Source: Liolophura sinensis (lineage: Eukaryota; Mollusca; Polyplacophora; Chitonida; Chitonidae). Taken from it: 64,000 bases of DNA. Below are positions 5,709 to 46,454 of the stretch, one piece after another. Each line of letters starts with the position of its first letter. Positions within the stretch are counted from its first letter, which is position 1. Below the pieces are notes generated by a model. It had not been told where the DNA came from. It was given only the letters and a program-made list of their open reading frames with translations, and ran no database searches. The DNA lies in contig NC_088305.1 in assembly GCF_032854445.1 (NCBI RefSeq), positions 29,288,628 through 29,352,627 on the forward strand. Reading direction: 5' to 3'. Made by a program: the position numbers and the translations under genes.

Positions 5709-6687
5709 TTCACAGAGACCATGAATAATGCCACAGGAGTGTCCTGGTATACCATGGATAAACACACGAGTGTGCTGGTATACGATGGATAAACACACGA
5801 GTGTGCTGGTATACGATGGATAAACACACGAGTGTGCTGGTATACGATGGATAAACACACGAGTGTCCTGGTATACCATGGATAAACACACGAGTGTCCT
5901 GGTATACCATGGATAAACACACGAGTGTGCTGGTATACGATGGATAAACACACGAGTGTCCTGGTATACCATGGATAAACACACGAGTGTCCTGGTATAC
6001 CATGGATAAACACACGAGTGTCCTGGTATACCATGGATAAACACACGAGTGTCCTGGTATACCATGAATAATGCCACACGAGTGTCCTGGTATACCATGG
6101 ATAAACACACGAGTGTCCTGGTAAACCATGGATAAACAAATGGAGTGTCCTGGTATACCATGGATAAACACACGAGTGCCCTGGTAAACCATGGATAAAC
6201 ACACGAGTGTCCTGGTATACCATGGATAAACACACGAGTGTCCTGGTAAACCATGGATAAACACACGAGTGTCCTGGTATACCATGGATAAACACACGAG
6301 TGTCCTGGTATACCATGGATAAACACACGAGTGTCCTGGTATACCATGGATAAACACACGAGTGTCCTGGTATACCATGGATAAACACACGAGTGTCCTG
6401 GTATACCATGGATAAACACACGAGTGCCCTGGTGTACCATGAATAATGCCACATGAGTGTCCTGGTATACCATGGATAAACACATGAGTGTCCTGGTATA
6501 CCATGGATAAACACACGAGTGTCCTGGTATACCATGGATAAACACACGAGTGTCCTGGTATACCATGGATAAACACACGAGTGTCCTGGTATACCATGGA
6601 TAAACACACGAGTGTCCTGGTATACCATGAATAATGCCACACAAGTGTCCTGGTATACCATGGATAAACACACGAGTGTCCTGGTAT
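5709..6687. repeat. 31-bp minisatellite, about 31 copies
   Basis: Tandem copies of a 31-bp unit containing CCATGGATAAACACACGAG and TGTCCTGGTATA. Successive CCATG starts at 5876 and 5907 give the period directly. A minority variant replaces GGATAAACACACGAG with a GAATAATGCCACACGAG-type sequence (near 5718, 6063, 6430 and 6628). A second variant, with GTGCTGGTATACGATGG, is concentrated in the first 250 bp. Because 31 is not a multiple of three and the unit has no minus-strand stop in any frame, three overlapping minus-strand frames stay open for over 300 codons each. These are a by-product of the repeat, not three genes. Confidence 0.97.
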
Positions 6688-7051: not shown

Positions 7052-8262
7052 TTAGAATCTGTAGCAGCGAGTGAGAAAATTGGCAACAGTCTGAAAAACT
7101 TTGTTGTGATTTCTCACCGGTTTTAAAACCGTGCCTTCTGACGGGTTCCTAACACCCACACGAGTTAATTCTGCGTAAAATACGCGCCTGGCGTCATTAT
7201 AATGTCTACAACGAAAAAGAACATGCGCAACAGTATCTTCTACAAAACATTCCTCACAATGACCCGTGTAATGGAGATTGATTTTATGCAAATAGCTGTT
7301 TGTTTTAATGTGACCAGAGAAGAGTCTAAATACGAGTATTTCGTCACAGCGACAGTTGAGAGAGAGATTGAAGCTTACAGAGATTTGAGGGTTGTGAGAG
7401 TAAAAGAATCTTCCTGTAACATTAGTTATCCCATTCATGTTGCCATACTGGTATAAATTTCGGTTTGACATAACTAATAGCTTCTTGTACAGACAACAGG
7501 ATGGTGTGGGATATATTGGGTAGATCAAGGGCCTTTTTGGCCAGTTTGTCGGCCAACTCATTTCCGTCAACACCAGTGTGGGCCGGCACCCATTCAAACG
7601 CCACAGATACACCTTGATAGCCCAATATAGTACAGATATACAGTATTTCATACACAAGCGCTGCCGACTTATTCCAAATAAAGTTACCAAGTCCCTGTTA
7701 AAGAACTTAAGGAGTCTGTGAAAATAACAGCCCTAATCGGTCTTAACTCGAGTAGATAGTTAAGAGCACTCAAGATTGCGGAAAGCTCTGCCGTGAACAC
7801 GGAAACATAACCTGACAAGCGGAAAGATTTTTCATACCTCATTTCTGAAATACATACTGATGCGCCCACTTTGTTAGTGTCGGGGCATTTGGAAGCGTCG
7901 GTAAATACTTGTATGTACTCGTTCCAGCTTGATTTAATATGGTCCTTGACACATAACAACGATACATTACTGTTATCCGTCTTTTTGACTTTAGAATGTA
8001 ATTCCACAGAGACAAATGGGTTCGATAACTTCCAGGGAGGAAAATGAGGAACACAACCAGGCTGAATAGAAATATCCCTGGCCTGAAAGAAGTCAGAAAT
8101 TTCGGTAGACCGGAAATTAAATGGCAAGGCTTTCTTACTGTCTTTACTATATAACTGATCATAATATGAGGGTTTAAGTACAGACGTTGCAGAATTATTA
8201 ATGGCAGACTTTAGCCTGAAAGTAAACTGCAGATACTGGGAAGGGCTCTCGTATTTATATTC
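7052..8262 (-). pseudogene. Non-LTR retrotransposon 3' fragment with RNase H
   Basis: On the minus strand three frames together encode the end of a LINE polyprotein. From about 8262 there is a stretch typical of the RT/RNase H connection (PSQYLQFTFRLKSA). Next come RNase H motifs: QVFTDASK (first Asp), VFTAELSAIL (Glu) and IFTDSLSSL (second Asp). A frameshift near 7700 leads to WVPAHTGVDGNELADKLAKK, the conserved last RNase H block. A second frameshift near 7430 leads to HIKTNSYLHKI and a Cys/His cluster (CEECFVEDTVAHVLFRCRHY) common at the end of such elements. The 5' part, including the polymerase domain, is absent. Family knowledge places RNase H-bearing LINEs in the I/Jockey/R1 group; I cannot assign the clade. 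The copy is dead because of frameshifts and truncation. Confidence 0.85.
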
Positions 8263-8269
8263 AAAGGCC

Positions 8270-11331: not shown

Positions 11332-14122
11332 TTAATGTTTCTGGGAGGGGCATTTGAAATCTATTTCACTAGTAGTCCGATTATCGATGATAAAGTTATT
11401 GATAGCTGGGTTGGTGATGCAATTGCCTCCTATGGTGAAATTGACGAATTGCCAATCTGTGATGCGGCTCTCACGTGAACCGGATATGACGTTGTGTAGT
11501 GCAGCGTCCAATGGCTGGGGGGCCATCGTCCAATTCAAGAAACGGAAGTTGGACACTGAACCAACAGCGCCGTCAGACATCTGGTAATAGATTGTTCGTG
11601 GGCAAGGGTCCTCGATCCGTATGTTTCGGAATTCGACGTCGGATGTCTCAAAATCATTGGTCTGTCCCCCGAGATCGAGAACGGCGTCATTGTCGCTGAT
11701 GCGGCAGTTTTCTCCCCTGAATGTACACCAGTCAGTGTGGATAACGTCGATGTTGCTTAGTGTGGCGTTCCTCATGCGACGATCCGGCCACCAACCCATT
11801 TGAAAGACGGCGCCATTTTGAGCTTGCCAAACGACGCAACGTCTGACGACCAAGTTACTTTGGTAAACCTGGGAAAACGAAAAGAAAACAATATTTACAG
11901 CCTTCTACACTAATTTTCCGTCGCTGGCCAGTTGATTTCTCGATTTCCCATTTCTTAATGTTTGTGAGACCATAGTTACAGTAAGACTAGGTCTTGGCAG
12001 AGGAATTTTAGTTTTAAAGTTTTAAAAGAAAACACTAACATAAAGTATATTTCAGAAAGAAGATCATTAAACACTGTCGAGGAATGTAGTTTGATTTATT
12101 TTAAAATCCTGGTAAATATGCCATGCATTTGAAATGTTGGAGTCTACAAATTCTACATTCTGATTATATTGGAACCAGAGACGTCACATCAGGGTTTTGC
12201 CACTTAACACAGACAGACTGCAACACTTTATTCTTTAAAAAGACTCCATTCACCAAACTGACCTTCAAACGAATTACATTTCAAGCTAAAATATTGTGAC
12301 GTTCTTGATAACCTCTGGGTCCCAACAGACCATGGTTGAATCTGATGTTTTGAAAGCATGTCACTCGGTTGGAAAATTCTAAAGAATTCTAAATCGAACT
12401 ACTTTTCTTGACATTCTTAAATGGTCTTTAATTCTATTAGACTTCATTTTAGTGGGGTTTTTTTTTTTGGGGTTTTAACACTTAAAGTGGTCGAGATTTC
12501 CAATTAAAAAGAAAAGTTTAAGTTCAAAGCCCCGATTTCTTTCTACCATAATGCTGACGGCTGTCGTGTGAATGAGATATTCTTGACTATGCGTAAAAAC
12601 ACCAATCAATTAAATGTTTGGAGCTATAATCTTCATAAATACCACAATTTAAGATTAAGCTTGACTTAAAGGATCGATACATGAAAAGGTACTATAAAAC
12701 GAAAAGTATGGCTTTATGGAAAATGAAGAAAGATGTGGCCAAATAAAAATAAAATAAAATTAAAATACATTTTTAATTCTTATTTTATGTCTTAATAAAT
12801 CCTATATTTCATGCATCTTTTCTGGGAATATTCAAAAATGACCTCACAGATGAAGTTGAACATATTCTGGAGATTGGGAACAGCTTAGTGCAACCAATTT
12901 GGGCTCTCTCCCTCCAACAAAGTTGCTTTGCCGACTACACTATCACAGTTGTTGACCACAGCACGGCAGGGTACATAATTTCTTCACTGACCGTTGTTAC
13001 CTTAGGAAAACTGTAACTTAAAGTCATATTTAGACCCCAAGAAGAAAAAGTAAGATGAGAAGCCTTTTCTGTACTTCTAGGTGTAGACCACATCCTGAAC
13101 TCCATATTAGGAACTGAAAACCAAACGTTTAATGTATCATGTCTAAAACAGCTTCGTGATCCTCAAGCGAGAGCAACACGAAAATGACATCTAGACCCTA
13201 CCTTGAATGTATCGTCATTCGCCCAGATGAAGGAGTCCTCGACAAGCCCATCCATACCGATCCCCACTCCATCAGAGTTGTATGTCCATGGGGCCAGCAT
13301 TTTCACATTCCTGACAGTGTTAAATGAACTTTGACCCCTGTAGAAGAACTGAGGGGAATCTACCAACGTGACCCCTTCTAAGAGGTGGTTTGAGCCCTTG
13401 TCCATATTCACGAGGCCCCACACGAAGCGGTTATCGTGAAAGGGGTATATGGCCCCAGACATTATACCCCTTCCGGTTATGTTGACGGGGTGCGAAGCCG
13501 TAGTGATGAAGCCCCCCTGGAGGAACGCTCCAGGAGCGAGATACACCTGGCGAATTCCCGGCGGAAGGTGAAGCTGGCCGTTTAAGTCGTGAACGCCGAC
13601 GTCAAAAAACATGACGCTGGGATCAGTCTTTAGAGGCACATGAGTTTCAGGCTCGTCGACGAAGATGAAGAGCTTGTCGGTGATGTCTTTAGTGGTCGAC
13701 GACTGGTCCGTGTCAAATTCAACCGACATCGTGAGCCCGTTGTGCGGGACGTCAAATCGGGCAACGTTTGAGGTGATCCTATGGCACGGTATATTGTACC
13801 TCCGCGGTCGCACGTAGCATTTGCTGAAGGATCTGGCTGCGTAGATTTCCACCGTAACTGGAGTAGACGTAAACGCGAATGACGTCCAAGAGACGGAGCG
13901 GTTGGGCTTGACGCTGGAGGCGTCTTTCATGCGATGGTTTGATGTGCTGATGTACGTAAAACTGGGGAACGTCGGACCTCTTTGTGTGAGCGTCACTGCG
14001 AACTTTGTCGATGGCGTCAAAATGTCGGCGTGTGGATACACTACTAAATCTCCACGGCTACCGATGATAACTGCAATGACCACAAGTACACTTTTTACGA
14101 TTATGTCCAATGCAGATGTCAT
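11332..14122 (-). CDS. Secreted GH49-like glycoside hydrolase, copy A
   Basis: Two exons, 14122-13202 and 11868-11332, join to 485 residues. Donor GTAGGG and acceptor TTTCCCAG are visible, and the intron is phase 0. Residues 1-24 form a hydrophobic signal peptide. An N-terminal beta-rich domain (from VVYPHAD; contains SFTYISTS and SVSWTSFAF) leads into a right-handed beta-helix-like region with YLAPGAFLQGGF and ITGRGIMSG. Catalytic-type acids appear as NSDG (Asp284) and NDD (Asp303-Asp304). Their spacing of 19 and 20 residues is the one I know from GH49 dextranase (376, 395, 396) and differs from GH28 polygalacturonase. NGAVFQMGWW replaces the GH28 GHG motif. Known GH49 enzymes cut dextran or pullulan, but the substrate here is unknown. 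Its divergent neighbour at 17841-20607 is a clear paralogue with the same intron position. No break is seen. Confidence is high for a beta-helix hydrolase of clan GH-N and moderate for GH49. Confidence 0.85.
12533..12618 (+). mobile_element. SINE, family 1, 3' fragment
   Basis: Matches the family-1 tail: TTCTACCATAATGCTGACGG, GTCGTGTGAATGAGATATTCTTGA (shifted from consensus) and AAAACACCAATCAA. It sits antisense in the intron of hydrolase copy A. Confidence 0.75.
12660..13090 (+). repeat. Dispersed repeat R2, copy 1
   Basis: Aligns with 47463-47835 (plus strand) and 51116-51470 (minus strand). Shared landmarks are GGAAAATGAAGAAAG, an AGCTTAGTG/AGCTTAGCG/AGCTTAGAG block, a GGCTCTCTCCC-like block and GGAAAACTGTAACTTAAAG. 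Roughly 400 bp, divergent. Confidence 0.65.
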
Positions 14123-14265
14123 TGCGCTTTGGACATTGGTTTTCAGTCAGTATAGGCAAGCTGATATTCGTGGGTATACGTGGAAGGTTTTGTCTCAAGC
14201 ACAACCAGTGCTTTTCTCAGGTCACAGTTCTGAACCGTTCTTTTTTTCTCAAGGTCACCTTTCAA

Positions 14266-14275
14266 CCTATATACA
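14266..14275 (-). promoter_or_regulatory. Candidate TATA box of hydrolase copy A
   Basis: Minus strand reads GTGTATATAGG, with TATATA at 14273-14268. It lies about 146 bp upstream of the ATG at 14122 and would imply a 5' untranslated region of about 115 bp. Positional inference only. Confidence 0.3.
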
Positions 14276-14529
14276 CCGCGATTACTAATGTACTTGCTAA
14301 GATCTGATCACGTGCACAAAGCATGACCACGAAGTTCGTATTGATCTCAGTAGTTATCATGAAACGTTTTGTAAGATATTTGCTGGAAGCTATCTGCTAA
14401 AATGTATTTGGTAAGGGAAATTTGGATGTTGTCTTCTGGCAGTACAGGTAAGATTACGAAGATATAACAAAATACTTTCAACGGGTGTAGTGAACTTGAA
14501 TAAAACATTCACATCATGCTGAAGAAAGA

Positions 14530-14658
14530 GTTAGCACGCAAGCTCTACGCAATGACCTAGGAGCCTCCCATCAATGCGGTTGCCGTGTGTTCAAGTTCAG
14601 CTCATGATGGCTTCCTCTCCGGCCGTACGTGGGGAGGTCTTCCAGCAACCTGCAGATG
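14530..14658 (+). mobile_element. SINE, family 1, 5' half
   Basis: Carries the tRNA-like head (GTTAGCACGC, TGACCTAGGAGCCTC, GTGTTCAAGTTC), GGCCGTACGTGG and CAGCAACCTGCAGATG, then stops. The next part of the same element resumes at 16112 on the same strand, so the palindrome nest in between looks inserted into this SINE. Confidence 0.8.
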
Positions 14659-14702
14659 ATTAAGAGTTTAACACCGCCATAGCATGGTTGCGGGCCATGT
14701 GC

Positions 14703-15492
14703 AAATGTACATATTAAATAGAGTTGACCTTTCAAACAACATCAGCTGCGTCACGCAACACACTGACCCGTACGCTTACATCCCCGAGTAATTTCAGTAA
14801 TTTCATGCTGTTTATGTCTACAAAAAAAAAATTCAGTTTGTTTACTTGTTAGATTTGCTTCGTGATTTATACAAAGGTCACCTATCGGCATTTCCATCAG
14901 GGATGACAGTGTTATTTTGCACAATTTAGAGATATCGCTTTCTTTTTTTTTTTTACATTTTTTACATTTTGCCCCCAGATGCCATGACGTTGAAAAAGAA
15001 ACATTTGTTTCACGACGTTCCAATATGACCTCAGCGTTATGACGTCATAATAATGTACAGTAAACTTATACATTTTTACGTCACACAACAATAAGACACG
15101 ACGTCATACATACACAGCTTTGACGTACCGAGGTCTTTACGTAAAAATGTAAAAGTTTACGGTGCATGTATTATGACGTCATACCACTGAGATTGGAACG
15201 TCTTGAAACAAATGTTTCTTTTTCAACGTCATGGCGTCTGGTTTTAAAATATAAAACATGTACAAATAGAGATATATAGAAATTGTGCGAAATAACACTT
15301 TTATCACTGAAGGAATATCCGATAATTCTCCTTCATATAAATCATAAAAGCAAATCTAACAAGGAAACAAACTTATATTTTTTGATTTGTAGAAACAAAA
15401 AGCATTAAATGATATTATTTGGGGAGGTAAACATGTGTTGCGTGACACACTCGATGTTGTTTGAAAGGTCATCTCCATTTAATATGTATATT
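14703..15492. repeat. Long palindrome (foldback 1)
   Basis: Left arm landmarks (TTGACCTTTCAAACAACATC, CATGACGTTGAAAAAGAAAC, TAAACTTATACATTTTTACG) return as complements on the right arm at 15453-15472, about 15215-15235 and 15140-15159. Each arm includes one perfect TGACGTCA palindrome (15040-15047 and 15174-15181). Confidence 0.85.
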
Positions 15493-15513
15493 TAAGGTTT
15501 AACACCGCCTAGC

Positions 15514-15615
15514 GGTGTTTGTTGTGTAAACCGATACCGCTGGCCCTTGCGCATTCGAGAGATTTGGCATGGCACGTAACACGGTTCAGCGGTATCGGGT
15601 TACACAACAAACACC
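15514..15615. repeat. Hairpin (foldback 2)
   Basis: GGTGTTTGTTGTG ... ACCGCTG at 15514-15542 pairs with 15587-15615 around a 44-bp loop, with a single mismatch. A flanking GTTTAACACC/GGTGTTAAA pair (about 15497 and 15624) extends the symmetry. Confidence 0.85.
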
Positions 15616-15810
15616 AAGACGATGGTGTTAAAGTCTATTCTACCCCAAGAAAGGAAGAAAATGAAGCAAAAACTGCATATTTCATGCTACCATACAAACA
15701 AAAATACAAACAAACTCAAATTCGTATAATTATAGAAATAATGGCATGGACAAATATTATTCGGGGAGGTAAACGTACCGGCCGGTGTGTTGGGTGACAC
15801 ACTCGTTGTT

Positions 15811-15940
15811 AATAATGAAGTTCAAACATCACCAGGTAAATGTAAAAGGTTTCACAAGTTCAAGATAATGATATCGACATTTGGATCGAAAGTTTGTGAA
15901 ACCCTTTACATTTACGTGGTGATGCCTTGACTTCATCATT
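15811..15940. repeat. Hairpin (foldback 3)
   Basis: AATAATGAAG ... GGTTTCACAA at 15811-15857 pairs with 15894-15940, with a few mismatches and a loop of about 36 bp. Confidence 0.8.
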
Positions 15941-16111
15941 ATTATTGAACCCAGGTACAACTATGAGTCTTAAACACTCGATGTTGTTTGAAAGGTCACC
16001 TCTATTTGATATGTATATTTGCACAGGGCCCGCAACTAACAGCGGGATAGAATTTCACACGGCCCGCAAGTGAGCGGGGGGGGGGGGGGGGGGGCGAGGG
16101 GGGTCCGCGGT

Positions 16112-16208
16112 CCCTGCCAGGTTTCCTCCCACCATTATTATGCTGGTTGCCGTCGTATGAGTGAAATATTTTTGAGTACAGCGTAAAACACCAGTCAAGG
16201 AAATAAAA
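16112..16208 (+). mobile_element. SINE, family 1, 3' half
   Basis: TGCCAGGTTTCCTCCCACC, TATGCTGGTTGCCGTCGTAT, GTGAAATATTTTTGAGTAC and GCGTAAAACACCAGTCAA continue the element interrupted at 14658. Confidence 0.8.
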
Positions 16209-16257
16209 AATATTTTCGAAAACAAAATGCCTTTGATAGAATCGTTGTTTACACATA

Positions 16258-16335
16258 TGAAAGAGTGAGTGAGTGAGTGCTTGGGGTTTAACGTCATACT
16301 CAACAATTTTTCAGTCATTTGACGACGACACATAT
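16258..16335 (-). mobile_element. SINE, family 2, 3' tail
   Basis: On the minus strand, GTCGTCAAATGACTGAAAAA, TTGTTGAGTATGACGTTAAA and CCCCAAGCACTCACTCACTC. The same tail, less the CACTC repeats, ends the longer copy at 35590-35928. Confidence 0.7.
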
Positions 16336-16339
16336 GAAA

Positions 16340-17780
16340 GAAACCTGTCACAAAGTTACTGGGAACTAAACCCGGTGCCATCCGGGCTGTATCCCATAGC
16401 TTTATTATTCACTTACCTTAAAAAATCTGTTAACTTTAACAATATGGTTTGTTGTCTGAGTCATGCTAGAATGTGTTTTGCTATTATAACATATTACTGT
16501 GTCACGCTCAACATTATGATAATATCCTATATCTGTGTTAACAATGGAATATGTCTGCTGAATTTAACAGAATAACCTCTAATTCTAGGTAATTCTAGTG
16601 CATTCTAACGCCGCTCAGAAAACACAGTTCTGTTAAATTTGACAGATATTTTCTCTGACATCACCATGTCTTCTGGTGGATGATTAGATTCCCTCCCCTG
16701 GTTCATCAGGTTAGTTGTAACTTTTAGATCGGCCTCGAAATGATGCCAGGTCCTCAGATTTGTATAAAAGATACCCCAGAGAATCGGAACGCACCTTGGG
16801 CGTAGGTCTTAGGATGATTATACATCTCTTGGATGTGAGAATGTAAGAATTTGAAACTGTACAGACGTTGTCCACCTCAAACTACTAGACTGTTAGGGAC
16901 GTTGTTATGTTCTTCTTTTAATTTCGTCGAATTTAGCGACCATGACACGGGTGTTTGGTTGGCGTTGAATCAGTTCTCGTGGTCGTGGATGCCATACATC
17001 TACATGGGGATGACCATCATTGTCCATAGAGTGTGGACCTTGACGATGGCAGGGGAGCAGGTAAAGGTAAAGAAACGTCCTGGAGATGGACATCCATGGC
17101 TTGGCGAAACTAGTGTCATGCGTACCATTTGGACTAATTTTACGCTAACGAAAAAAATCCCACGAAGGTTTACACCTGGCCACTTGGTTATCTCCATCCA
17201 TTAAACTGTCCGCCATCGCGTAAGAAAATAATTCCTGAGTTTTGTGTTTAACAATAACCAGAAAAATACATAAATAATAAAAAAATAATAATAAAAAAAA
17301 TAAATAAGTACATAAATAAATCAATAAATAAATAAATAAAGCGTACACAACCATTATGGGAGATGTATGATGCTGTAGTTGGGTCTTGAACTCGTCCTGC
17401 AGTCGTCTTGAAGTCGTCTGAAAAACTATGGCTTATTTACATGTTATGCATGGCAACTGTATTAACAGATAAACCAAACCGGTTTTTTCCGGATGAAGTA
17501 AAATTAGGTCACCGCTTTCATCCTTATATAACCTAAATTTTGCAAAGAACATCCATTTTTTGGGTTCATTTGAGGTTTTGGGCACAAAACACTTAAGCGA
17601 TACACATATACAACACTGCCACATCAGAAAACAGCAGAGTGTTTCACTGTTTCAGATTTCACATTGCCATGATCGGTGTGACAAATTGTCAGTGGACAGG
17701 GTTTGTCTAGACCAGGGTGTGTGGGTGGTCGTAGAACTGGGTCGTCTTAAACATCTGGCCTGTCTGTGGAGGCTTGAGAA
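16340..17780. other. Intergenic DNA upstream of hydrolase copy B
   Basis: No gene recognised. It contains an A/T-rich run of TAAATAAATAAA type at about 17255-17340. The longest open frames (about 100-117 codons) show no domain. Confidence 0.5.
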
Positions 17781-17786
17781 TTTACA

Positions 17787-17792
17787 TATATA
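17787..17792 (+). promoter_or_regulatory. Candidate TATA box of hydrolase copy B
   Basis: TATATA within TTACATATATAGATAGG, 48 bp before the ATG at 17841. Transcription starting about 25-30 bp downstream would leave a 5' untranslated region of about 20 bp. Inferred from position and motif only. Confidence 0.4.
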
Positions 17793-17840
17793 GATAGGCG
17801 CTATGCAAAGCTTGATCTGTTTAGGACGTTCATATCAAAC

Positions 17841-19816
17841 ATGGCACTACTCCCGACATCAGCGGTTTTGTTCATGTTAATGATTTGTCAACAAGGAAGC
17901 ACTAATCTCGTCATCTACCCGCATGCGAATGGACCACCAGCCTCCAACCACTTCACCATTTTCCTGAGCCAAGGTGGAAACAAGCACAAAAGTTTCACCT
18001 ATATCTCCACCTCGGATCACCGCACGCACGACGCTAGTTCTGTCAAGCCACACAGGTCCGTCTCCTGGACGTCTTTTGCTTTTACCGGTTCTCCAGTCAC
18101 CGTCGAGGTTCACACTCAGTCAGATTTCCACAACTGCTTGGTTAGGCCCATGAGCTACGGTTTTCATTGTAGGCGAACCGGGCCTAAGGTTGCCCAATTC
18201 ACCGTCCAACACAACACCCGTATGATGTCCGTGGAATTCGACAACGACCAAACTAACAACCACAAGGACATCACCAACAAACTGGTGGTTTTCGCGGACC
18301 CACCGGAAACCAATATCCCTTCAAAACACGACGCAAGCGTTCTCTTCTATGACGTCGGTTTGCATAATTTAAACGGACAAAAACTCCTGGACTCTCACAT
18401 CAAGGAGGTGTATTTGGCCCCAGGGGCCTTCGTTCAAGGAGGATTCCGGACCTCTGGGGGTTCGGTAAAAATCAGAGGCCGAGGAATCATGTCCGGGACA
18501 ATATACAAGTTCCACGACAAGAGGTTTTTGTGGGGTATGATCAACCTAGACAAAGGATCGCATCACGTGGTAGAAGGTATCACCCTGGTGGACTCACCTC
18601 AGTTCTTTTATCGGGGCCTCAGTGACAACAATGTGGTGAGGAACTTGAAGACATTGGCGCCGTGGACGTACAACTCTGATGGAGTGGGAATCGGACATGA
18701 CGGCTTGGTAGAGGACAGTTTCTTCATGGCTAACGACGATTCGATCAAGGTGAAGATTCAGTGGTAGCTTTCTGCTGCATTGTTTCAATGCAGCGGAAAG
18801 CTGTCCAGAAAGTTCTGCCTGTTACACCCATTAAATCTCAGTCAATTTTTAGTGCTTCTTCGTTACACAAATGGCTGACTGCAATTCTACTTGCGACGAA
18901 AATTGTCGAATATAAAAGTTAATGTTTCTAATTGCATCTTGGTAATGTCACACGCAAGACGCAATGGCCTAAGACTTAAGTTTAAGTCCAGCTCATGCTG
19001 GCTTTCTGTGCGGTCAGATGTATATAGATGTACACATTTTGCTGTCCACTTTGAGTTGGGATCAGTTAGCTTACTTTCCTTGGCAGTAACTTTTCAAACT
19101 AGGTTTTATTTACCAAAACTAGTTCAGAGAGCTCCCCTGCCATCCCGCATCGTATGATCGAACGCTAGAACACCATAGCCAAACACAAGCGTCTTTTATT
19201 TTATTTTTTTTTTTGATTGGTGTTTTACGCCGTACTCAAGAATATTTCACTTATACGACGGCGGCCAGCATTATGGTGGGTGGAAACCGGGCAGAGCCCG
19301 GGGGAAACCCACGACCATCCGCAGCAAGCGTCTTTTAACTTCATATTGAAATTTCTCTAGTTCTTATGTAAGCAGAACTTTTCTCTACCTCCCTCTCTTG
19401 ACATGTAGCATGATAAAATGGTAGCTAGGTAAATGTAGCATGGTAACGTGGTACATGTAATATGGTAACGAGGTAGCGAGGTAGATGCAGCATGGTAACG
19501 TGGTAGCGAGGTAAATGTAGCAGGGTAACGAGGTAGCAAGGTACATGCAGCATGGTAACGAGGTAGCGAGGTAAATGTAGCATGGTAACGAGGTAGCGAG
19601 CTTCATGGCGCATGGTAACGAGGTAGCGAGGTACATGTTGCATGGTAACGTGGCAGCGAGGTACATGTAGCATGACAGCGAGGTAGCGAATTAAGGTAGG
19701 GGTGCTTCGTAGTATAAGTGAAATATTCTTGAGTACGGCGTAAAACACCAATAAATAAATAAGTAAATATTTTATTCTAAGACCCTGTAGATTTCATGGT
19801 GAAAACACCTGTTGTT

Positions 19817-19859
<43 letters not shown>

Positions 19860-20607
19860 TATATTTATTTATTTATTTATTTATTTATTCATTGATTGGT
19901 GATTTATTGATTGGTGTTTTACGCCGTAGAATATTTCACTTCTACGACGGCGACCAACATTATGGTGGGAAGAAACCAGACAGAGCCGGGGTAAAACCCA
20001 TGACAATTCGCAGGTTGCTGGCAGACATTCCCACGTGCCTTGTTGTTTAAGCACAGTTGCTATTCTTTCTTCATAATAGGTATATACGGATAACATGGTG
20101 GTCCGTCGCTGTGTGGTTTGGCAAGCTCAGAATGGGGCCGTGTTTCAGACGGGCTGGTGGACCGGAAGAGACATGCAAAAGGTCCGCATCAGCGACATCG
20201 ACGTCATTCACACTGACTGGTGTACATTCAAGGGAGACAACTGCCACATCAGCGACAATGACGCCGTTTTGGACCAGGCAGGAGACACAAAACATTTCAA
20301 AACTACCGACATCTCCTTCGAGAACATCAGAATCGAAGGATCTTGCCCTCGGATCATCAATTTCAAGATGCACCCAGGCGCCACAGGGACCGTCTCAAAT
20401 GTTCGCTTCACGAACTGGGACGTGGAATCTCAGCCGACTCATGACTCACTCCATAACGAGATAGCAGGCAGCTCTTCGGGCGGTCAAGTGACGAACTGGC
20501 ACTTTACCAATTTCAAGATCGGCGGCCATTGTGTGCACAACCCTACTTCGGAAGACTTCAAAATTGACCCCCACACCACCAGTGACATACACTTCACTTG
20601 CCACTAA
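17841..20607 (+). CDS. Secreted GH49-like glycoside hydrolase, copy B
   Basis: Exons 17841-18749 and 20080-20607 join in phase 0 (AAG|GTGAAG donor, TTCATAATAG acceptor) to give 478 residues and a TAA at 20605. Residues 1 to about 20 are a signal peptide. The order of blocks follows copy A: VIYPHAN, SFTYISTSDHR, SVSWTSFAF, YLAPGAFVQGGF, RGRGIMSG, VDSPQFFYRG, NSDG (Asp280) and NDD (Asp299-Asp300), then KVYTDNMVVRRCVVWQ across the splice and NGAVFQTGWW. By eye about 60% of residues match copy A, with both catalytic-type motifs kept. The spacing of 19 and 20 residues between NSDG and NDD fits GH49. The copies diverge most at residues 24-36 and 95-120 and at the extreme C-terminus, so substrate range may differ. 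The gene looks intact. The family's known substrates are alpha-glucans, but the substrate here cannot be read from sequence. Confidence 0.87.
18950..19021 (+). mobile_element. SINE, family 1, head fragment
   Basis: CACGCAAGACGCAATGGCC, AAGTCCAGCTCATGCTGGC and TTTCTGTGCGGTC match the start of the family, with losses. Confidence 0.45.
19199..19324 (-). mobile_element. SINE, family 1, 5'-truncated, with target duplication
   Basis: The minus strand starts within GCGGATGGTCGTGGG and runs to the ACGGCGTAAAACACCAATC tail. A perfect 13-bp target-site duplication, CAAGCGTCTTTTA, flanks it (19186-19198 and 19325-19337), so insertion through the 5'-truncated copy is directly supported. Confidence 0.92.
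19408..19690. repeat. 30-bp minisatellite, about 9 copies
   Basis: The unit is of the type GCATGGTAACGAGGTAGCGA plus GGTAAATGTA, length 30, with substitutions between copies. The minus strand shows an open frame through it only because the unit is a multiple of three and lacks stops. Confidence 0.93.
19697..19768 (+). mobile_element. SINE, family 1, 3' fragment
   Basis: GTATAAGTGAAATATTCTTG, AGTACGGCGTAAAACACCAA and a TAAATAAATAAG tail. Confidence 0.8.
19812..20041 (-). mobile_element. SINE, family 1, with expanded (TTTA)n tail
   Basis: The minus strand has CAACCTGCGAATTGTCATG (diverged from consensus), CCACCATAATGTTGGTCG and TACGGCGTAAAACACCAATC, then about 90 bp of (TAAA)n. The microsatellite at 19816-19888 is therefore the element's own A-rich tail. 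Its 5' end lies only about 40 bp before exon 2 of hydrolase copy B. Confidence 0.8.
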
Positions 20608-20711: not shown

Positions 20712-20902
20712 AGGATCGCTTTGGCGTTCTAAAGGTAGGGGCGTCCGCCTCAAAGTCGGGAGACCCGGGATCAAACCCGAGTCTTGTCATATACCAAATA
20801 CTTTAAAAATGGTACTTATCACTGCCTCGTTTGGAGCTTACAACTGAGAGGTTAGAGCATGGAAACAGGGCTGCTTGGCCTGGTGTCAACGGCTATATGC
20901 AG
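20712..20902 (+). mobile_element. SINE, family 2, 5' part
   Basis: GGCGTCCGCCTCAAAGTCGG, GAGACCCGGGATCAAACCCG (B box), TGGTACTTATCACTGCCTCG, GAGAGGTTAGAGCATGG and TTGGCCTGGTGTCAACG align with 35590-35790. The copy stops where the reverse-transcriptase fragment begins. Confidence 0.75.
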
Positions 20903-22398: not shown

Positions 22399-25300
22399 GG
22401 GCTGTGCACGATTATGGTGCCGCTGAGCATCCATATTCCATGTTTCTACACGTTGGATGTTGTGGACAATTATGGTGCCGCTGAGCATCCATATTCCATG
22501 TTTCTACACGTTGGATGTTGTGGACAATTTGGGTGACGCTGAAAATCCATATTCCATGTTTGTACACGTTGGATGTTGTGGGCAATTTTGGTGCCGCTGA
22601 ACATCCATATTCCTTGTTTGTACACGTTGGTTGTTGTGGCAATTTGGTGACGCTGACATCCATATTCCTTGTTTGTACACGTTGGATGTTATGGACAATT
22701 TGGGTGCCGCCTAGCATCCATATTCCTTGTTTGTACACGTTGGTTGTTGTGGGCAATTTGGGTGACGCTGAGCATCCATATTCCATGTTTGTACACGTTG
22801 GTTGTTGTGAACAATTTGGTGCCGCTGAGCATCCATATTCCCTTGTTTGTACACGTTGGATGTTGTGGATAATTTGGGTGCCCCAGAACATCCATATTCC
22901 ATGTTTGTACACGTTGGATGTTGTGGTCAATTTGGTTGCTGTTGAACATCCATATTCCTTGTTTGTACATGTTGGATGTTGTGGACAATTTGGGTGCTCC
23001 AGAACATCCATATTCCATGTTGTACACGTTGGATGTTGTGACAATTTGGTTGCTGTTAAACATCCATATTCCTTGTTGTACACGTTGGATGTTGTGGACA
23101 ATTTGGTTGCCGCTGAGCATCCATATTCCATGTTTGCACACGTTGGATGTTGTGGACAATTTGGTTACTGTTGAACATCCATATTCCTTGTTTGTACACG
23201 TTGGATGTTGTGGACAATTTGGGTGCTCCAGAACATCCATATTCCATGTTCTACACGTTGGATGGTTGTGGACAATTTGGGTGACGCTGAACATCCATAT
23301 TCCCTGTTTATACACGTTGGATGTTGTGGACAATTTGGGTGACGCTAAATATCCATGTTCCATATTTGTACACGTTGGATGTTGTGGAAAATTTGGGTGA
23401 CGCTGAACATCCATATTCCCTGTTTGTACACGATGCATGTTGTGGACAATTTGGGTGACGCTGAACATCCATATTCCATGTTTATACACGTTGGATGTTG
23501 TGGACAATTTGGGTGACGCTGAGCATCCATATTTTATGCTTGTACATGTTGGATGTTGTGGACAATTTGGGTGACGCTGAACATCCATATTCCATGTTTG
23601 TACACGTTGGATGTTGTGGACAATTTGGGTGCCGCTGAGCATCCATATTCCTTGTTTGTACACGTTGGATGTTGTGGACAATTTGGTTGCCGCTGAGCAT
23701 CCATATTCCATGTTTGTACATGTTTGGATGTTGTGGACAATTTGGGTTACTGTTGAACATCCATATTCCTTGTTTGTACACGTTGGATGTTGTGGACAAT
23801 TTGGGTGCTCCAGAACATCCATATTCCATGTTTGCACACGTTGATGTTGTGGACAATTTGGGTGACGCTGAACATCCATATTCCCTGTTATACACGTTGT
23901 GTTGTGGACAATTTGGGTGACGCTAAATATCCATGTTCCATATTTTGTACACGTTGGATGTTGTGGAAAATTTGGGTGACGCTGAACATCCATATTCCCT
24001 GTTTGTACACGATGCATGTTGTGGACAATTTGGGTGACGCTGAACATCCATATTCCATGTTTATACACGTTGGATGTTGTGGACAATTTGGGTGACGCTG
24101 AACATCCACATTCCATGCTTGTACATGTTGGATGTTGTGGACAATTTGGTTGACGCTGAACATCCATCTTCCATGTTTGTACACGTTGGATGTTGTGGAC
24201 AATTTGGGTGCCGCTGAGCATCCATATTCCTTGTTTGTACACGTTGGATGTTGTGGACAATTTGGGTGACGCTGAACATCCATATTCCCTGTTTATACAC
24301 GTTGGATGTTGTGGACAATTTGGGTGACGCTAAATATCCATGTTCCATATTTGTACACGTTGGATGTTGTGGACAATTTGGGTGACGCTGAACATCCATA
24401 TTCCCTGTTTGTACACGATGCATGTTGTGGACAATTTGGGTGACGCTGAACATCCATATTCCATGTTTATACACGTTGGATGTTTGTGGACAATTTGGGT
24501 GACGCTGAACATCCACATTCCATGCTTGTACATGTTGGATGTTGTGGACAATTTGGGTGACGCTGAGCATCCATATTTTATGCTTGTACATGTTGGATGT
24601 TGTGGACAATTTGGTTGACGCTGAACATCCATCTTCCATGTTTGTACACGTTGGATGTTGTGGACAATTTGGGTGCCGCTGAGCATCCATATTCCATGTT
24701 TGTACACGTTGGATGTTGTGGACAATTTGGTTGCTGTTGAACATCCATATTCCATGTTTCTACACGTTGGATGTTGTGGACAATTTGGGTGCCGCTGAAT
24801 ATCCATCTTCCATGTTTCAACACGTTGGATGATGTGGACAATTTGGGTGACACTGAAAATCCATATTCCATGTTTGTACACGTTGGATGTTGTGGACAAT
24901 TTGGGTGACCTTGAACATCCATATTCCATGTTTGTACACGTTGGATGTTGTGGACAATTTGGGTGCCGCTGAACATCCATATTCCATGTTTGTACACGTT
25001 GGATGTTGTGGACAATTTGGGTGCCGCAGAACATCACAAAACTTGGATGTTGTGGACAATTTGGGTGCCCCTGAGCATCCATATTCCATGTTTGTACACG
25101 TTGGATGTTGTGGACAATTTTGGTGACGCTGAAGATCCATGTTCCATGTTTGTACACGTTGGATGTTGTGGACAATTTGTGTGCCGCAGAACATCCATAT
25201 TCCATGTTTGTACATGCTGGATGCTGTGGACAATTTGGGTGACTCTGAATATCCATGTTCCATGTTTGTACAGGGTGGATGTTGTGTACAATTTGGGTGA

Positions 25301-28300
25301 CGCTGAACATCCATATTCCATGTTTGTACACGTTGGTTGTTGTGGACAATTTGGGTGACGCTGAGCATCCATATTCCTCGTTTGTACACGTTGGATGTTG
25401 TGGACAATTTGGGTGCTCCAAAACATCCATATTCATTTTTTGTACAAGTTGGTTGTTGTGGACAATTTGGGTGACTCTGAACATCCATATTCCATGTTTG
25501 TACACGTTGGATGTTGTGGACAATTTGGGTGACTCTGAACATCCATATTCCATGTTTGTACACGTTGGATGTTTGTGGACAATTTGGGTGCCGCTGAACA
25601 TCCATATTCCATGTTTGTTCACGTTGGATGTTGTGGACAATTTGGGTGCCGCAGAACATCACAAAACTTGGATGTTGTGTACAATTTGGGTGCCGCTGAG
25701 CATCCCTGTTCCATGTTTGTACACGTTGGATTTTGTGGACAATTTGGTTGCTGTTGAACATCCATATTCCTTGTTTGTAAACGTTTGTTGTTGTGGACAA
25801 TTTGGGTGCTCCAGAACATTCATATTCCATGTTTGTACACGTTGGATGTTGTGGAGAGTTTGGGTGACGCTAAACATCCATATTCCCTGTTTGTACACGT
25901 TGGATGTTGTGGACAATTTGGGTGAGGCTAAATATCCATGTTCCATATTTGTACACGTTGGATGTTGTGGACAATTTGGGTTCTCCAGAACATCCACATT
26001 CCATGTTTATACACGTTGGATGTTGTGGACAATTTGGGTGCCGCTGAACATCCATATTCCATGTTTATACACGTTGGATGTTGTGGACAATTTGGGTGCT
26101 CCAGAACATCCATATTCCATGTTTGTACACGTTTGGATGTTGTGGACAATTTTGGTGACACTGAACATCCACATTCCATGTTTGTACACGTTGGACGTTG
26201 TGGACAATTTGGGTTTGGCTGAATATCATCTTCCATGTTTGTACACGTTGGATGTTGTGGACAATTTGGGTGACGCGGAACATCCATATTCCATGTTTAT
26301 ACACGTTGGATGTTGTGGACAATTTGGGTGACGCTGAACATCCATATTCCATGTTTGTACATGTTGGATGTTGTGGACAATTTGTGTTTGGCTGAATATC
26401 CATATTCCATGTTTCTACACGTTGGATGTTGTGGACAATTTGGGTGACGCTGAGCATCCATATTCCATGCTTGTACATGTTGGATGTTGTGGACAATTTG
26501 GGTGACGCTGAGCATCCATATTCCATGCTTGTACACGTTGGATGTTGTGGACAATTTGGTTGACGCTGAACATCCATATTCCATGTTTGTACACGTTGGA
26601 TGTTGTGAACAATTTGGGTGCCGCTGAGCATCCATATTCCATGTTTGTACACGTTGGATATTGTGGACAATTTGGTTGCTGTTGAACATCCATATTCCTT
26701 GTTTCTACACGTTGGATGTTGTGGACAATTTGGGTGACGCTGAATATCCATCTTCCATGTTTCAACACGTTGGATGATGTGGACAATTTGGGTGACGCTG
26801 AAAATCCATATTCCATGTTTGTACACGTTGGATGTTGTGGACAATTTGGGTGACGCTGAACATCCATACTCCATGTTTGTACACGTTGGATGTTGTGGAC
26901 AATTTGGGTTCTCCAGAACATCCATATTCCATGTTTATACACGTTGGATGTTGTGGACAATTTGGGTGCCGCTGAACATCCATATTCCATGTTTATACAC
27001 GTTGGATGTTGTGGACAATTTGGGTGCTCCAGAACATCCATATTCCATGTTTGTACACGTTGGATGTTGTGGACAATTTTGGTGACACTGAACATCCACA
27101 TTCCATGTTTGTACACGTTGGACGTTGTGGACAATTTGGGTTTGGCTGAATATCCATCTTCCATGTTTGTACACGTTGGATGTTGTGGACAATTTGGGTG
27201 ACGCTGAACATCCATATTCCATGTTTATACACGTTGGATGTTGTGGACAATTAGGGTCACGCTGAACATCCATATTCCATGTTTGTACACGTTGGATGTT
27301 GTGGACAATTTGTGTTTGGCTGAATATCCATATTCCATGTTTGTACACGTTGGATGTTGTGGACAATTTGGGTGACGCTGAGCATCCATATTCCATGCTT
27401 GTACATGTTGGATGTTGTGGACAATTTGGGTGACGCTGAGCATCCATATTCCATGCTTGTACATGTTGGATGTTGTGGACAATTTGGTTGACGCTGAACA
27501 TCCATATTCCATGTTTGTACACGTTGGATGTTGTGGACAATTTGGGTGCCGCTGAGCATCCATATTCCATGTTTGTACACGTTGGATATTGTGGACAATT
27601 TGGTTGCTGTTGAACATCCATATTCCTTGTTTCTACACGTTGGATGTTGTGGACAATTTGGGTGACGCTGAATATCCATCTTCCATGTTTCAACACGTTG
27701 GATGATGTGGACAATTTGGGTGACGCTGAAAATCCATATTCCATGTTTGTACACGTTGGATGTTGTGGACAATTTGGGTGACGCTGAACATCCATACTCC
27801 ATGTTTGTACACGTTGGATGTTGTGGACAATTTGGGTGCCGCTGAACATCCATATTCCATGTTTGTACACGTTGGTTGTTGTGGACAATTTGGGTGCCGC
27901 AGAGCATCACAAAACTTGGATGTTGTGGACAATTTGGGTGCCGCTGAGCATCCATATTCCATGTTTGTGCACGTTGGATGTTGTGGACAATTTGGGTGCC
28001 ACTGAACATCCATATTCCATTTTTCTACACGTTGGATGTTGTGGACAATTTGGGTGACGCTGAACATCCATATTCCATGTTTATACACGTTGGTTGTTGT
28101 GGACAATTTGGTTGACGCTGAACATCCATATTCCATGTTTGTACACGTTGGTTGTTGTGGACAATTTGGGTGACGCTGAACATCCATATTCCTTGTTTCT
28201 ACTCGTTAGTTGTTGTGGACAATTTGGTTGACGCTGAACATCCATATTCCATGTTTGTACACGTTGGATGTTGTGGACAATTTGGGTGACGCTGAACATC

Positions 28301-30497
28301 CATATTCCATGTTTGTACACGTTGGTTGTTGTGGACAATTTGGGTGACGCTGAAGATCCATGTTCCTTGTTTGTACACGTTGGATGTTGTGGACAATTTG
28401 GGTGACGCTGAAAATCCATATTCCATGTTTCTACACATTGGATGTCGTGGACAATTTGGGTGACGCTAAATATCCATGTTCCATATTTGTACACGTTGGA
28501 TGTTGTGTACAATTTGGGTGACGCTGAACATCCATATTCCATGTTTGTACACGTTGGTTGTTGTGGACAATTTGGGTGACGCTGAACATCCATATTCCTT
28601 GTTTGTACACGTTGGATGTTGTGGACAATTTGGGTGACGCTGAACATTCATATTCCATGTTTGTACACGTTAGATGTTGTGGACAATTTGGGTGACACTG
28701 AACATCCATATTCCATGTTTGTACACATTGGTTGTTGTGGACAATTTGGGTGACACTGAACATCCATATTCCATGTTTGTACACGTTGGTTGTTGTGGAC
28801 AATTTGGGTGCCGCTGAACATCCATATTCCATGCTTGTACATGTTGGATGTTGTGGACAATTTGGGTGACGCTGAACATCCATATTCTATGTTTGTACAC
28901 GTTGGATGTTGTGGACAATTTGGGTGACGCTGAACATCCATATTCCATGTTTGTACACATTGGTTGTTGTGGACAATTTGGGTGACACTGAACATCCATA
29001 TTCCGTGTTTGTACACGTTGGTTGTTGTGGACAATTTGGGTGACACTGAACATCCATATTCCATGTTTATACACATTGGTTGTTGAGGACAATTTGGGTG
29101 CCGCTGAACATCCATATTCCATGTTTGTACACGTTGGTTGTTGTGGACAATTTGGGTGCCGCTGAACATCCATATTCCATGTTTGTACATGTTGAAAATG
29201 GTGGACAATTTGGGTGACGCTGAACATCCATATTCTATGTTTGTACACGTTGGATGTTGTGGACAATTTGGGTGACGCTGAACATCCATATTCCATGTTT
29301 GCACATGTTGGTTGTTGTGAACAATTTGGGTGCCGCAGAACATCACAACAGTTGGATGTTGTGGACAATTTGGGTGTGGCTGAATGTTCATGTTCCATGT
29401 TTGTACACGTTGGTTGTTGTGGACAATTTGGGTGCCGCTGAACATCCATATTCCATGTTTGTACATGTTGGTTGTTGTGAACAATTTGGGTGCCGCAGAA
29501 CATCACAACAGTTGGATGTTGTGGACAATTTGGGTGTGGCTGAATGTTCATGTTCCATGTTTGTACACGGTGGTTGTTGTGGACAATTTGGGTGACGCTG
29601 AACATCCATATTCCATGTTTGTACATGTTGGATGTTGTGAACAATTTGGGTGCCGCAGAACATCCATATTCCATGTTGTACACGTTGGATGTTGTGGACA
29701 ATTTGGGTGACGCTGAATATTCATGTTCCATGTTTGTATACGTTGGATTTTATGAACAATCTGGGTGCCCCTGAGCATCCATATTCCATGTTTATACACG
29801 TTGGTTGTTGTGGATAATTTGGGTGCCGCAGAACATCACAACAGTTGGATGTTGTGGACAATTTGGGTGTGGCTGAATATTCATGTTCCATGTTTGTTCA
29901 CGTTGGATGTTGTGGACAATTAGGGTGACGCTGAACATCCATATTCAATGTTTGTACACGTTGGATGTTGTGGACACTTTGGGTGCCGCTGAACATCCAT
30001 ATTCCATGTTTGTACACGTTGGATTTTGTGGACAATTTGGGTGCCGCTGAGCATCCATATTCAATGTTTGTACATGCTGGATGCTGTGGACAATTTGGGT
30101 GACGCTGAATATTCATGTTCCATGTTTGTATACGTTGGATTTTATGAACAATCTGGGTGCCCCTGAGCATCCATATTCCATGTTTATACACGTTGGTTGT
30201 TGTGGATAATTTGGGTGCCGCAGAACATCACAACAGTTGGATGTTGTGGACAATTTGGGTGTGGCTGAATATTCATGTTCCATGTTTGTACACGTTGGAT
30301 GTTGTGGACAATTTGGGTGACGCTGATTATTCATCTTCCATGTTTGTACACGTTGGATGTTGTGGACACTTTGGGTGCCGCTGAACATCCATATTCCATG
30401 TTTGTACACGTTGGATTTTGTGGACAATTTGGGTGCCGCTGAGCATCCATATTTAATGTTTGTACATGCTGGATGCTGTGGACAGTTTGGGTGACGC
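22399..30497. repeat. 58-bp tandem array, about 140 copies (8.1 kb)
   Basis: Head-to-tail units containing CATCCATATTCCATGTTTGT, ACACGTTGGATGTTGTGG and ACAATTTGGGTGACGCTGAA, total 58 bp. Variants include GTGCCGCTGAG, GTGCTCCAGAAC, GTTGCTGTTGAAC, GTTTGGCTGAAT and a 44-bp short unit with GCCGCAGAACATCAC. Blocks repeat at multiples of 58: a marker with ACACGATGCATG recurs at 23419, 23999 and 24405 (10 and 7 units apart), and about 930 bp (16 units) from 26.0 kb is duplicated at 26.93 kb. The many long open frames on both strands result from a unit with few stops and a length of 1 mod 3. I see no protein gene in it. Confidence 0.97.
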
Positions 30498-30814
30498 TGA
30501 ATCATGCAAACTGTAGACATGCAGACTACATTGATGGAAGACAAGTGGTCTTCAGTTACGAACGTTGGACTATGTAAACGACCATACCAGTGTGGAAGAC
30601 CGCTTAATATCACACAGGCCCCACGATCAATGAAAGCGGTGAAATACACACATTTTGGCCCGTATATTAAGGTGATGAAACCAACACCACTCGACAAGCT
30701 ATACCGACAGGTTTCCCTACTTGAAACCAAGAAGAACTCGGCCTAATCTGGATTCGAGACCGTGGTCTCATTGATCACGGGCTGTTGATTCGGGGGAAGG
30801 TTTTTCATCAACCT

Positions 30815-33289: not shown

Positions 33290-34640
33290 ACAACTGAAAA
33301 TGGACTAGGCTGAATGGTTGAAACAAACTAGTTGTACATCTGAACAATGCACAGTACAGGGCACCATAAACTAGCTGTACAGGGTAAGACCAAATAGCTG
33401 TACATCTGAACAATGTACTGTACAGGGCAACATAAACTAGCTGTACAGGGTGAGTCCAGCCAGCTGTACATCAGAACAATGTACTGTACAGGGCAACATG
33501 AATTAGCTGTACAGGGTGAAACGAACTAGTTGTACATCTGAACAATGTACTGTACAGGGCAACATAAACTAGCTATACAGGGTGAGTCCAGCCAGCTGTA
33601 CATCTCAACAATGTGCTGTACAGGGCAACATGAATTAGCTGTACAGGGTGATACCAACTAGTTGTACATCTGAACAATGTACTGTAAAGGGCAACATAAA
33701 CTGGCTGTACAAGGTAAGACCAAGTAGCTGTACATCTGAACAATGCACCATACAGGGCAACATAAACTAGCTTTACAGGGCGAGATCAACTAGCTGTACA
33801 TCTGAACAATGTACTGTAAAGGGCAACATAAACTAGCTGTACAGGGTGAGTCCAGCCAGCTGTACATCTGAACAATGTACTGTAAAGGGCAATATTAACT
33901 AGCTGTACAAGGTAAGACCAAGTAGCTGTACATCTGAACAATGCACCATACAGGGCAACATAAACTAGCTGTACAGGGTGAGACCAAGTAGCTGTACATC
34001 AGAACAATGTACTGTAAAGGGCAACATAAACTAGCTGTACAGGGTGAGACCAAGTAGCTGTACATCTGAACAATGCACTGTACAGGGCAACATAAACTAG
34101 CTGTACAGGGTGAGACCAACTAGCTGTGCATCAGAACAATGTACTGTACAGGGCAACATAAACTAGCTGTACAGGGTGAGACCAAGTAGCTGTACATCTG
34201 AACAATGTACTGTAAAGGGCAATATAAACTGGCTGTACAAGATAAGACCAAGTAGTTGTACATCTGAACAATGCACCGTACAGGGCAACATAAACTAGCT
34301 GTACAGGGTGAGACCAAGTAGCTGTACATCTGAACAATGCACTGTACAGGGCAACATAAACTAGCTGAACAGGGTGAGACCAAGTAGCTGTATATCTGAA
34401 CAATGCATTGTACAGGGCAAAATACCCTACCTGTACAGAGTGAGACCAACTAGCTGTACATCTGAACAGTGCACTGTACAAAGCAACATAAACTAGCTGT
34501 ACAGGGTGAGACAAACTACCTGTACATCTGAACATTGCATTGTATAGGGCAAAATTAACTAGCTGTACTTCTGAACAATGCACTGTACAGGATGATACAA
34601 ATTAGCTGTATATCTTAACAATTTACAGTAAAAGGTGACA
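33290..34640. repeat. 66-bp minisatellite, about 20 copies
   Basis: The unit includes TAAACTAGCTGTACAGGGTG, AGACCAAGTAGCTGTACATC and TGAACAATGCACTGTACAGG; successive TAAACT starts at 33961 and 34027 give 66 bp. The core is homogeneous and both edges decay (from about 33215 and to about 34800). Because 66 is a multiple of three, the minus strand carries one open 22-residue repeat frame of up to 150 codons. It lacks any start context or flanking exon that would make it a gene. Confidence 0.95.
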
Positions 34641-37402: not shown

Positions 37403-38042
37403 AAAAGCAAATTATTTGCGTACAAAATAAATGAACCTCACCTATTCAGCTTTCACATACATGTACATGTATAAAATTCCCACTGATGAAGACTCAGTTA
37501 TTGCACAACTTGTTTACAAAAAGTTAAAAACAAATAATAACTGTGAGTGAATAGTGACACCTCTGTGACGCAACACAGCTGTTTGAATCATGCATTATCT
37601 GGCCCCTGCCACCAGATGGCACCTCCACCAATACAGTGTGATGGGCAGGTAGAATCAAACAAAGCAGCAAAATGGGGTAAGATACATGTGTCAGGACATT
37701 ACAATACTGGTCACTATGGAAACACTGCAGTCCAAAATAAAGTCATCTCAATCCTGAGCATATTATTCGACAATCATGGTCATTTTTAATGTATTGTCAG
37801 CATTTTGCTGATGGATAAATTAGGTTTCCTTACTGCCCTTAACCCAAACTCCCTTTCGAAAAACAAACTGTTGTCATGTTTCATGAAAATATGACCAGTG
37901 TCTATGCATTTTGTACCTTATCACAAAAGGCATCATCTAAAACAGGCCATTTACAATTAAGGAAAAAAAGAAACTCTTGACAAGTACTTGGTCTTCTGGA
38001 AAACGTATATGCAACTAAATAAATGATGTTTTTTCCGGCATT

Positions 38043-46430: not shown

Positions 46431-46454
46431 CACCAATCTGAAAACAGATAGATT

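Follow-up and report, generated by a model that had tools for sequence, protein, structure and literature searches.

A 64,000-nucleotide stretch of the genome of the chiton Liolophura sinensis (NCBI RefSeq assembly GCF_032854445.1, contig NC_088305.1, positions 29,288,628 to 29,352,627 of the forward strand), hereafter the window, carries two paralogous genes, A and B, which are GH49-type by sequence, fold, diagnostic residues and phylogeny. Both retain the aspartate triad of this glycoside hydrolase family, and the pair is apparently functional. We put at roughly 0.55 the probability that A and B encode secreted hydrolases which digest an arabinose-rich, possibly sulfated polysaccharide of algae or plants. 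The features of the pair, in window coordinates, are as follows.

11332..11868, minus strand: gene A exon 2 with stop codon; C-terminal beta-helix turns
11869..13201, minus strand: gene A intron, phase 0, GT..AG, 1333 bp
13202..14122, minus strand: gene A exon 1; hydrophobic N-terminus, immunoglobulin (Ig)-like sandwich domain (GH49N), first beta-helix turns, catalytic Asp residues
13211..13216, minus strand: gene A codons for Asp303 and Asp304 (NDD)
13271..13273, minus strand: gene A codon for Asp284 (NSDG)
14123..17840: intergenic span, start codon to start codon, 3.7 kb
17841..18749, plus strand: gene B exon 1; hydrophobic N-terminus, Ig-like sandwich domain, first beta-helix turns, catalytic Asp residues
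18678..18680, plus strand: gene B codon for Asp280 (NSDG), aligned to Asp376 of the Penicillium dextranase
18735..18740, plus strand: gene B codons for Asp299 and Asp300 (NDD), aligned to Asp395/Asp396 of the Penicillium dextranase
18750..20079, plus strand: gene B intron, phase 0, GT..AG, 1330 bp, at the site of the gene A intron
20080..20607, plus strand: gene B exon 2 with stop codon; model discussed below

The two genes lie head to head, and the span between their start codons is a possible shared regulatory region. They encode proteins of 485 (A) and 478 (B) amino acids, with internal stops in neither, and an AATAAA lies 15 bases 3' of the gene B stop codon. The intron falls at the identical site in both, between K and VY, three residues past the DD. 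A and B are identical at 282 of 471 aligned columns (60%), with a dN (nonsynonymous divergence) of 0.34; identity at codon positions 1, 2 and 3 is 65, 78 and 40%, and since the third positions are saturated these values point to an old duplication under protein-level constraint, which the shared intron also fits. A search of the genome (609 Mb in 632 contigs) with B returned four exon matches, namely those of A and B, and no further copies at that sensitivity. The hydrophobic N-termini suggest a signal peptide in each protein: on the Kyte-Doolittle scale, 11-residue averages sampled at alternate positions over the first 30 peak at 3.15 (A) and 2.08 (B).

A preliminary description of this DNA had proposed two intact spliced paralogues with signal peptides and with NSDG and NDD motifs at the 19- and 20-residue spacing of GH49, whose shared intron it took to suggest an old acquisition of the gene and later duplication. 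Its gene models were exact, each with one phase-0 GT..AG intron, the spacing holds for D284/D303/D304 in A and D280/D299/D300 in B, and the duplication history agrees with the intron site and codon positions; of the signal peptides, the hydrophobic N-termini were confirmed and the peptides themselves remain predictions. The two introns share nothing but short pieces, 18 to 80 bases long. The 80-bp piece (80% identity; 12531-12609 and 19213-19291) matches again elsewhere in the gene B intron and is probably a dispersed repeat.

Family assignment, fold and phylogenetic position

When B was searched against solved structures, all four matches up to E 10 were GH49 enzymes, the best at 4e-21. The Pfam model PF17433 matched gene A at 27.9 bits (cut-off 21.3), passing in A only, whilst PF00295, the GH28 model, had no match up to E 1 in either gene and none in the whole genome. 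NCBIfam likewise gave no match up to E 1 for A or B. The GHG and RIK motifs typical of GH28 were absent from both proteins when inspected by eye.

Each exon was modelled on its own, and no model spans a whole chain. Exon 1 of gene B gave an Ig-like sandwich and the start of a parallel beta-helix, and exon 2 (predicted local distance difference test score, pLDDT, 89.9) had GH49 as its top Foldseek row, with no Foldseek E below 0.001. On these models the architecture of A and B is the two-domain one of GH49, an Ig-like sandwich followed by a right-handed parallel beta-helix.

Residues were counted over the 38 grouped rows of a 44-row alignment, in which the pair, L105, L097, L063_1 and L121 stand outside the groups. 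The Asp triad (equivalent to Asp376/395/396) is invariant in 38/38, GH28-like rows included. Lys303 and Trp329 are diagnostic, being present in 13/13 canonical GH49 rows (two of them fungal), 3/3 Alteromonadales-type rows, 3/3 of the Verrucomicrobia/Persicobacter group and 0/19 GH28-like rows; across the same four groups Trp76 was counted in 12, 3, 3 and 0 rows, Gln326 in 12, 3, 2 and 0, and Asn321 in 12, 3, 3 and 1. For the dextranase DEX49A, a published table gives 14 conserved residues, triad included (PMC6723167). Twelve of these are covered in the pair, Trp568 and Trp571 lying outside the fragment, and nine are kept; in DEX49A numbering Thr375 is replaced by Ser and Trp267 by Gln/Glu, and a counterpart of Tyr463 is lacking. 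All 12 remaining canonical rows (12/12) have Trp at position 267, whereas no other bacterial row that was counted does. Four cysteines common to A and B (110, 351, 358 and 477 in B) occur in 0/42 other rows and probably form stabilising disulfides.

A first quick tree of 112 rows with several long branches was replaced by a careful 44-row tree and two 39-row trees, the latter omitting L121, L105, L110, L097 and L063_1. In the 44-row tree the pair joins the canonical, fungal and Alteromonadales-type rows, away from the GH28-like ones, with support of 97/92 and a stem of 0.88, and the same 18-row side was recovered in the 39-row trees at 100/96 (full length) and 100/95 (catalytic part). In the 44-row tree those 18 rows, taken without L097 and L063_1, receive just 68/7, which leaves the placement of the pair inside this side tentative. 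The pair is not nested in the canonical dextranase/isopullulanase clade of bacteria and fungi; we read it as a deep separate branch on the GH49 side. In approximately unbiased (AU) tests, union with the two fungal rows, both of them fragments, was rejected (p 8e-50), and with it a fungal origin of the kind reported for a whitefly; union with the Verrucomicrobia/Persicobacter group was mildly disfavoured (p 0.038, 0.011 and 0.021) and union with the Alteromonadales-type group was not rejected (p 0.076).

This lineage may go back to an old transfer or to old eukaryotic inheritance. Relatives matching B were found in 47/288 genomes of the phylum of a Kiritimatiellales genome (Verrucomicrobiota), 4/28 of the order of the best match, 14/395 of the phylum of a Flavobacterium, 3/394 of the order of an Alteromonadaceae genome and 11 plasmid records; 39 stretches of viral contigs fitted a pattern, with no relatives among them. 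Vertical descent in eukaryotes with many losses, rather than transfer from bacteria, we regard as unlikely, if still a serious contender. In its favour, the best identity among the searched bacteria is 34% with no close donor, the pair forms its own deep branch and union with the two fungal rows fails; against it, the first of these counts shows a wider family common in bacteria. Two further genomes (G913 and G1085) hold 11 and 7 GH49/GH28-like matches, an expansion of clan GH-N-type enzymes.

The GH49-like call of the preliminary description is thus upheld, also by a tree with bacterial and fungal rows. Horizontal acquisition, which it had raised, is a possibility only: the pair is a long branch, the best relative among the bacteria searched has 34% identity and union with the two fungal rows is rejected. 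Of the profile models it wished to see compared, PF17433 passes in A, PF00295 is lacking and the other GH49 models stay under their cut-offs.

Substrate, mechanism and role

By analogy with solved GH49 enzymes, A and B would hydrolyse a glycosidic bond in the beta-helix cleft by single displacement, with inversion. By the same kind of analogy, Asp299 would be the likely acid, with Asp280 and Asp300 activating the water. A common fold and catalytic machinery are described for clan GH-N enzymes (PMC7939477). GH87 and GH110 are other beta-helix families with such machinery. The role would be extracellular and probably digestive, in the breakdown of algal or plant polysaccharide rather than of dextran or pullulan: because Trp267 and Tyr463 are not kept, these two are not favoured as substrates, and retention of the catalytic residues alongside loss of some dextranase-typical ones suggests that another polysaccharide is digested.

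Genes next to bacterial relatives give a clue to which. A Persicobacter relative (L062) is flanked by two GH43 genes and two sulfatases, and a Catenovulum relative (L063) by three GH43 genes, a GH27-like gene and four annotated sulfatases; further neighbours are GH127 and a rhamnosidase (L138), GH43 (L139), and a GH27-like gene with a sulfatase (L142). Codium walls contain sulfated polymers of 3-linked beta-L-arabinopyranose (PMC7550628), and arabinan is named as a possible GH49 substrate in a whitefly study (PMC11800479). Taken together, these suggest an arabinose-rich, perhaps sulfated algal substrate, the weakest link in our interpretation. That the pair is the molluscs' own hydrolase for the sulfated arabinose-rich wall polysaccharide of green algae, and its deep lineage a new GH49 subfamily, is a more speculative and rather improbable extension; if true, a grazer could break down green algae, siphonous ones among them, with no need of bacteria.

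Several observations weigh against the proposed assignment and substrate. Only one Pfam GH49 model exceeds its curated cut-off, and in gene A only: PF03718 reaches 16.1 in B (cut-off 27), and PF18783 21.2 in A and 17.5 in B (cut-off 30.2). With in-house profiles, which are unequal in size and diversity, the pair scored 279-281 bits with the Verrucomicrobia/Persicobacter group and 216-243 with a mixed GH28-like set, as against 120-135 with canonical GH49 with or without the fungal rows. The highest pairwise identity, 34%, is also to the Verrucomicrobia/Persicobacter group, a member of which, the Persicobacter protein, has no GH49 model match and approaches PF00295 (22.2 against a cut-off of 22.9). 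The relatives whose neighbourhoods suggest the substrate are only 24-34% identical to the pair. Amongst the five neighbourhoods L138-L142, all scanned but L141, that of L140 lacks an arabinose gene; there the GH49-like frame (142-2799, genome G854) also encodes a BNR (sialidase-like) repeat domain and adjoins DUF6259. More distant GH28-like relatives, carried on plasmids, stand beside different genes: a fucose permease (L064), a xylanase and an alpha-galactosidase (L065), an alginate lyase and GH78 (L067), and GH116 (L068).

The best-placed alternative, though an unlikely one, is that A and B are ordinary dextranase- or isopullulanase-like enzymes acting on alpha-glucans such as bacterial biofilm dextran or algal starch-like glucans. 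Dextranases and isopullulanases make up the GH49 relatives of solved structure, and nine of the 12 covered DEX49A residues are kept, but the loss of Trp267 and Tyr463, the change of Thr375 to Ser and the position outside the canonical clade all count against it. Slightly less probable is a secreted GH49-fold protein with a non-digestive role, in immunity, egg coat or mucus, or one that is catalytically silent. The cysteines peculiar to the pair would suit such a protein; against it, both paralogues retain the three Asp and the Lys, Asn and Trp close to them, although their third codon positions are saturated. A GH28-type, pectin-acting enzyme merely resembling GH49 is very improbable: the two families share clan GH-N (PMC7939477) and the GH28-like set outscores canonical GH49 in the in-house profiles, but PF00295 is missing from pair and genome, the diagnostic residues differ and the fold match is limited to the helix, and on these grounds we reject GH28.

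Host genome and chromosomal surroundings

The preliminary description had placed the pair in an animal genome, and this is correct. Elsewhere in the assembly (contig C8, 37880506-37891931) eight tandem beta-sandwich units of mollusc-type haemocyanin lie within about 11.4 kb, in open frames of 429-529 amino acids, and this eight-unit gene identifies the host as a mollusc; the haemocyanin model matched 0/14 control genomes, a weak control, the four named ones being prokaryotes. Within the window, two exons of inositol polyphosphate 1-phosphatase (INPP1; 40140-46454, minus strand; E 8e-24 and 1.3e-14) place the pair near an ordinary animal gene. GC content at third codon positions is 0.61 and 0.63 in the pair, resembling one INPP1 exon (0.63) and exceeding both a CDK12-like exon (0.43) and the second INPP1 exon (0.45). 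The family is mainly bacterial and fungal, which might point to contamination of the assembly from such a source. This is rejected: both genes have GT..AG introns and lie about 20 kb from an INPP1 exon, on a contig whose sequence ahead of the window exceeds 29 Mb.

Gene B is closely followed, on its downstream side, by a satellite array that covers 8 kb (22416-30501) and whose 58-bp units can also be read as a 174-bp period, and minisatellite arrays occupy 5732-6687, 33319-34568, 38042-39398 and 42397-43522 (units of 31, 66, 97 and 32 bp). Directly past gene B, 20720-20790 resembles, by eye, the B box of a short interspersed element derived from transfer RNA; a scan of the window against Rfam gave no match. 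A probable remnant of a long interspersed element (7055-8268, minus strand) shows one match to RNase H and one to a reverse-transcriptase zinc-binding domain, neither of which reaches its Pfam cut-off. A Ser/Arg-rich frame (54116-54892, plus strand) contains LVSYDDISSDSD, in which it resembles the N-terminus of CDK12/13; it has no Pfam match, and a scan of 30500-64000 for CDK12 kinase motifs found nothing.

Comparison with known systems

The characterised GH49 enzymes known to us are bacterial or fungal. Among the papers listed from the literature searched, mostly without subscription journals, we found no animal GH49 other than that of the whitefly Bemisia tabaci and nothing on GH49 in molluscs, matches for dextranase with mollusc or gastropod being off topic as listed; the main text of PMC6011409 does not mention 'GH49'. 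The whitefly gene is described as fungal-derived and acquired by horizontal gene transfer (PMC11800479). Compared by description, it is likewise a GH49 gene in an animal genome, with an assigned fungal donor, whereas union of the mollusc pair with the two fungal rows was rejected; the pair belongs to a different lineage. The under-described animal clan GH-N family suggested earlier fits the pair, although the whitefly sets a precedent. It would be no surprise if other molluscs had orthologues, annotated or not, and the pair would then be less novel.

GH28 polygalacturonases share the clan GH-N fold and Asp triad (PMC7939477) but are set apart by the differences given above. The intermediate proteins L116 and L104, from the Kiritimatiellales-containing phylum, and L062 are closest in identity (28-34%) and near-equal in length, yet their union with the pair is disfavoured. 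The Catenovulum adriaticum protein L063, which passes PF17433, and the Alteromonadales-type L099 and L101 fall with the pair and canonical GH49 on one side of the tree but are bacterial, 24-27% identical and encoded in longer frames of 596-777 amino acids. The canonical dextranases and isopullulanases (PDB 1ogm, 6nzs, 1wmr/3wwg) agree with the pair in the two-domain fold, the triad at 19/20 spacing, the K.Y past the DD and the W..NG..Q.GW stretch, and differ in sequence (24-27% identity in the four rows measured), in having Trp267 and Tyr463, and in lacking the extra cysteines and spliced animal genes. With its altered cleft, this mollusc lineage, intact, duplicated and under constraint, broadens the GH49 family, adds an animal case alongside that of the whitefly and offers a directly testable candidate for the digestion of algal polysaccharides by animals.

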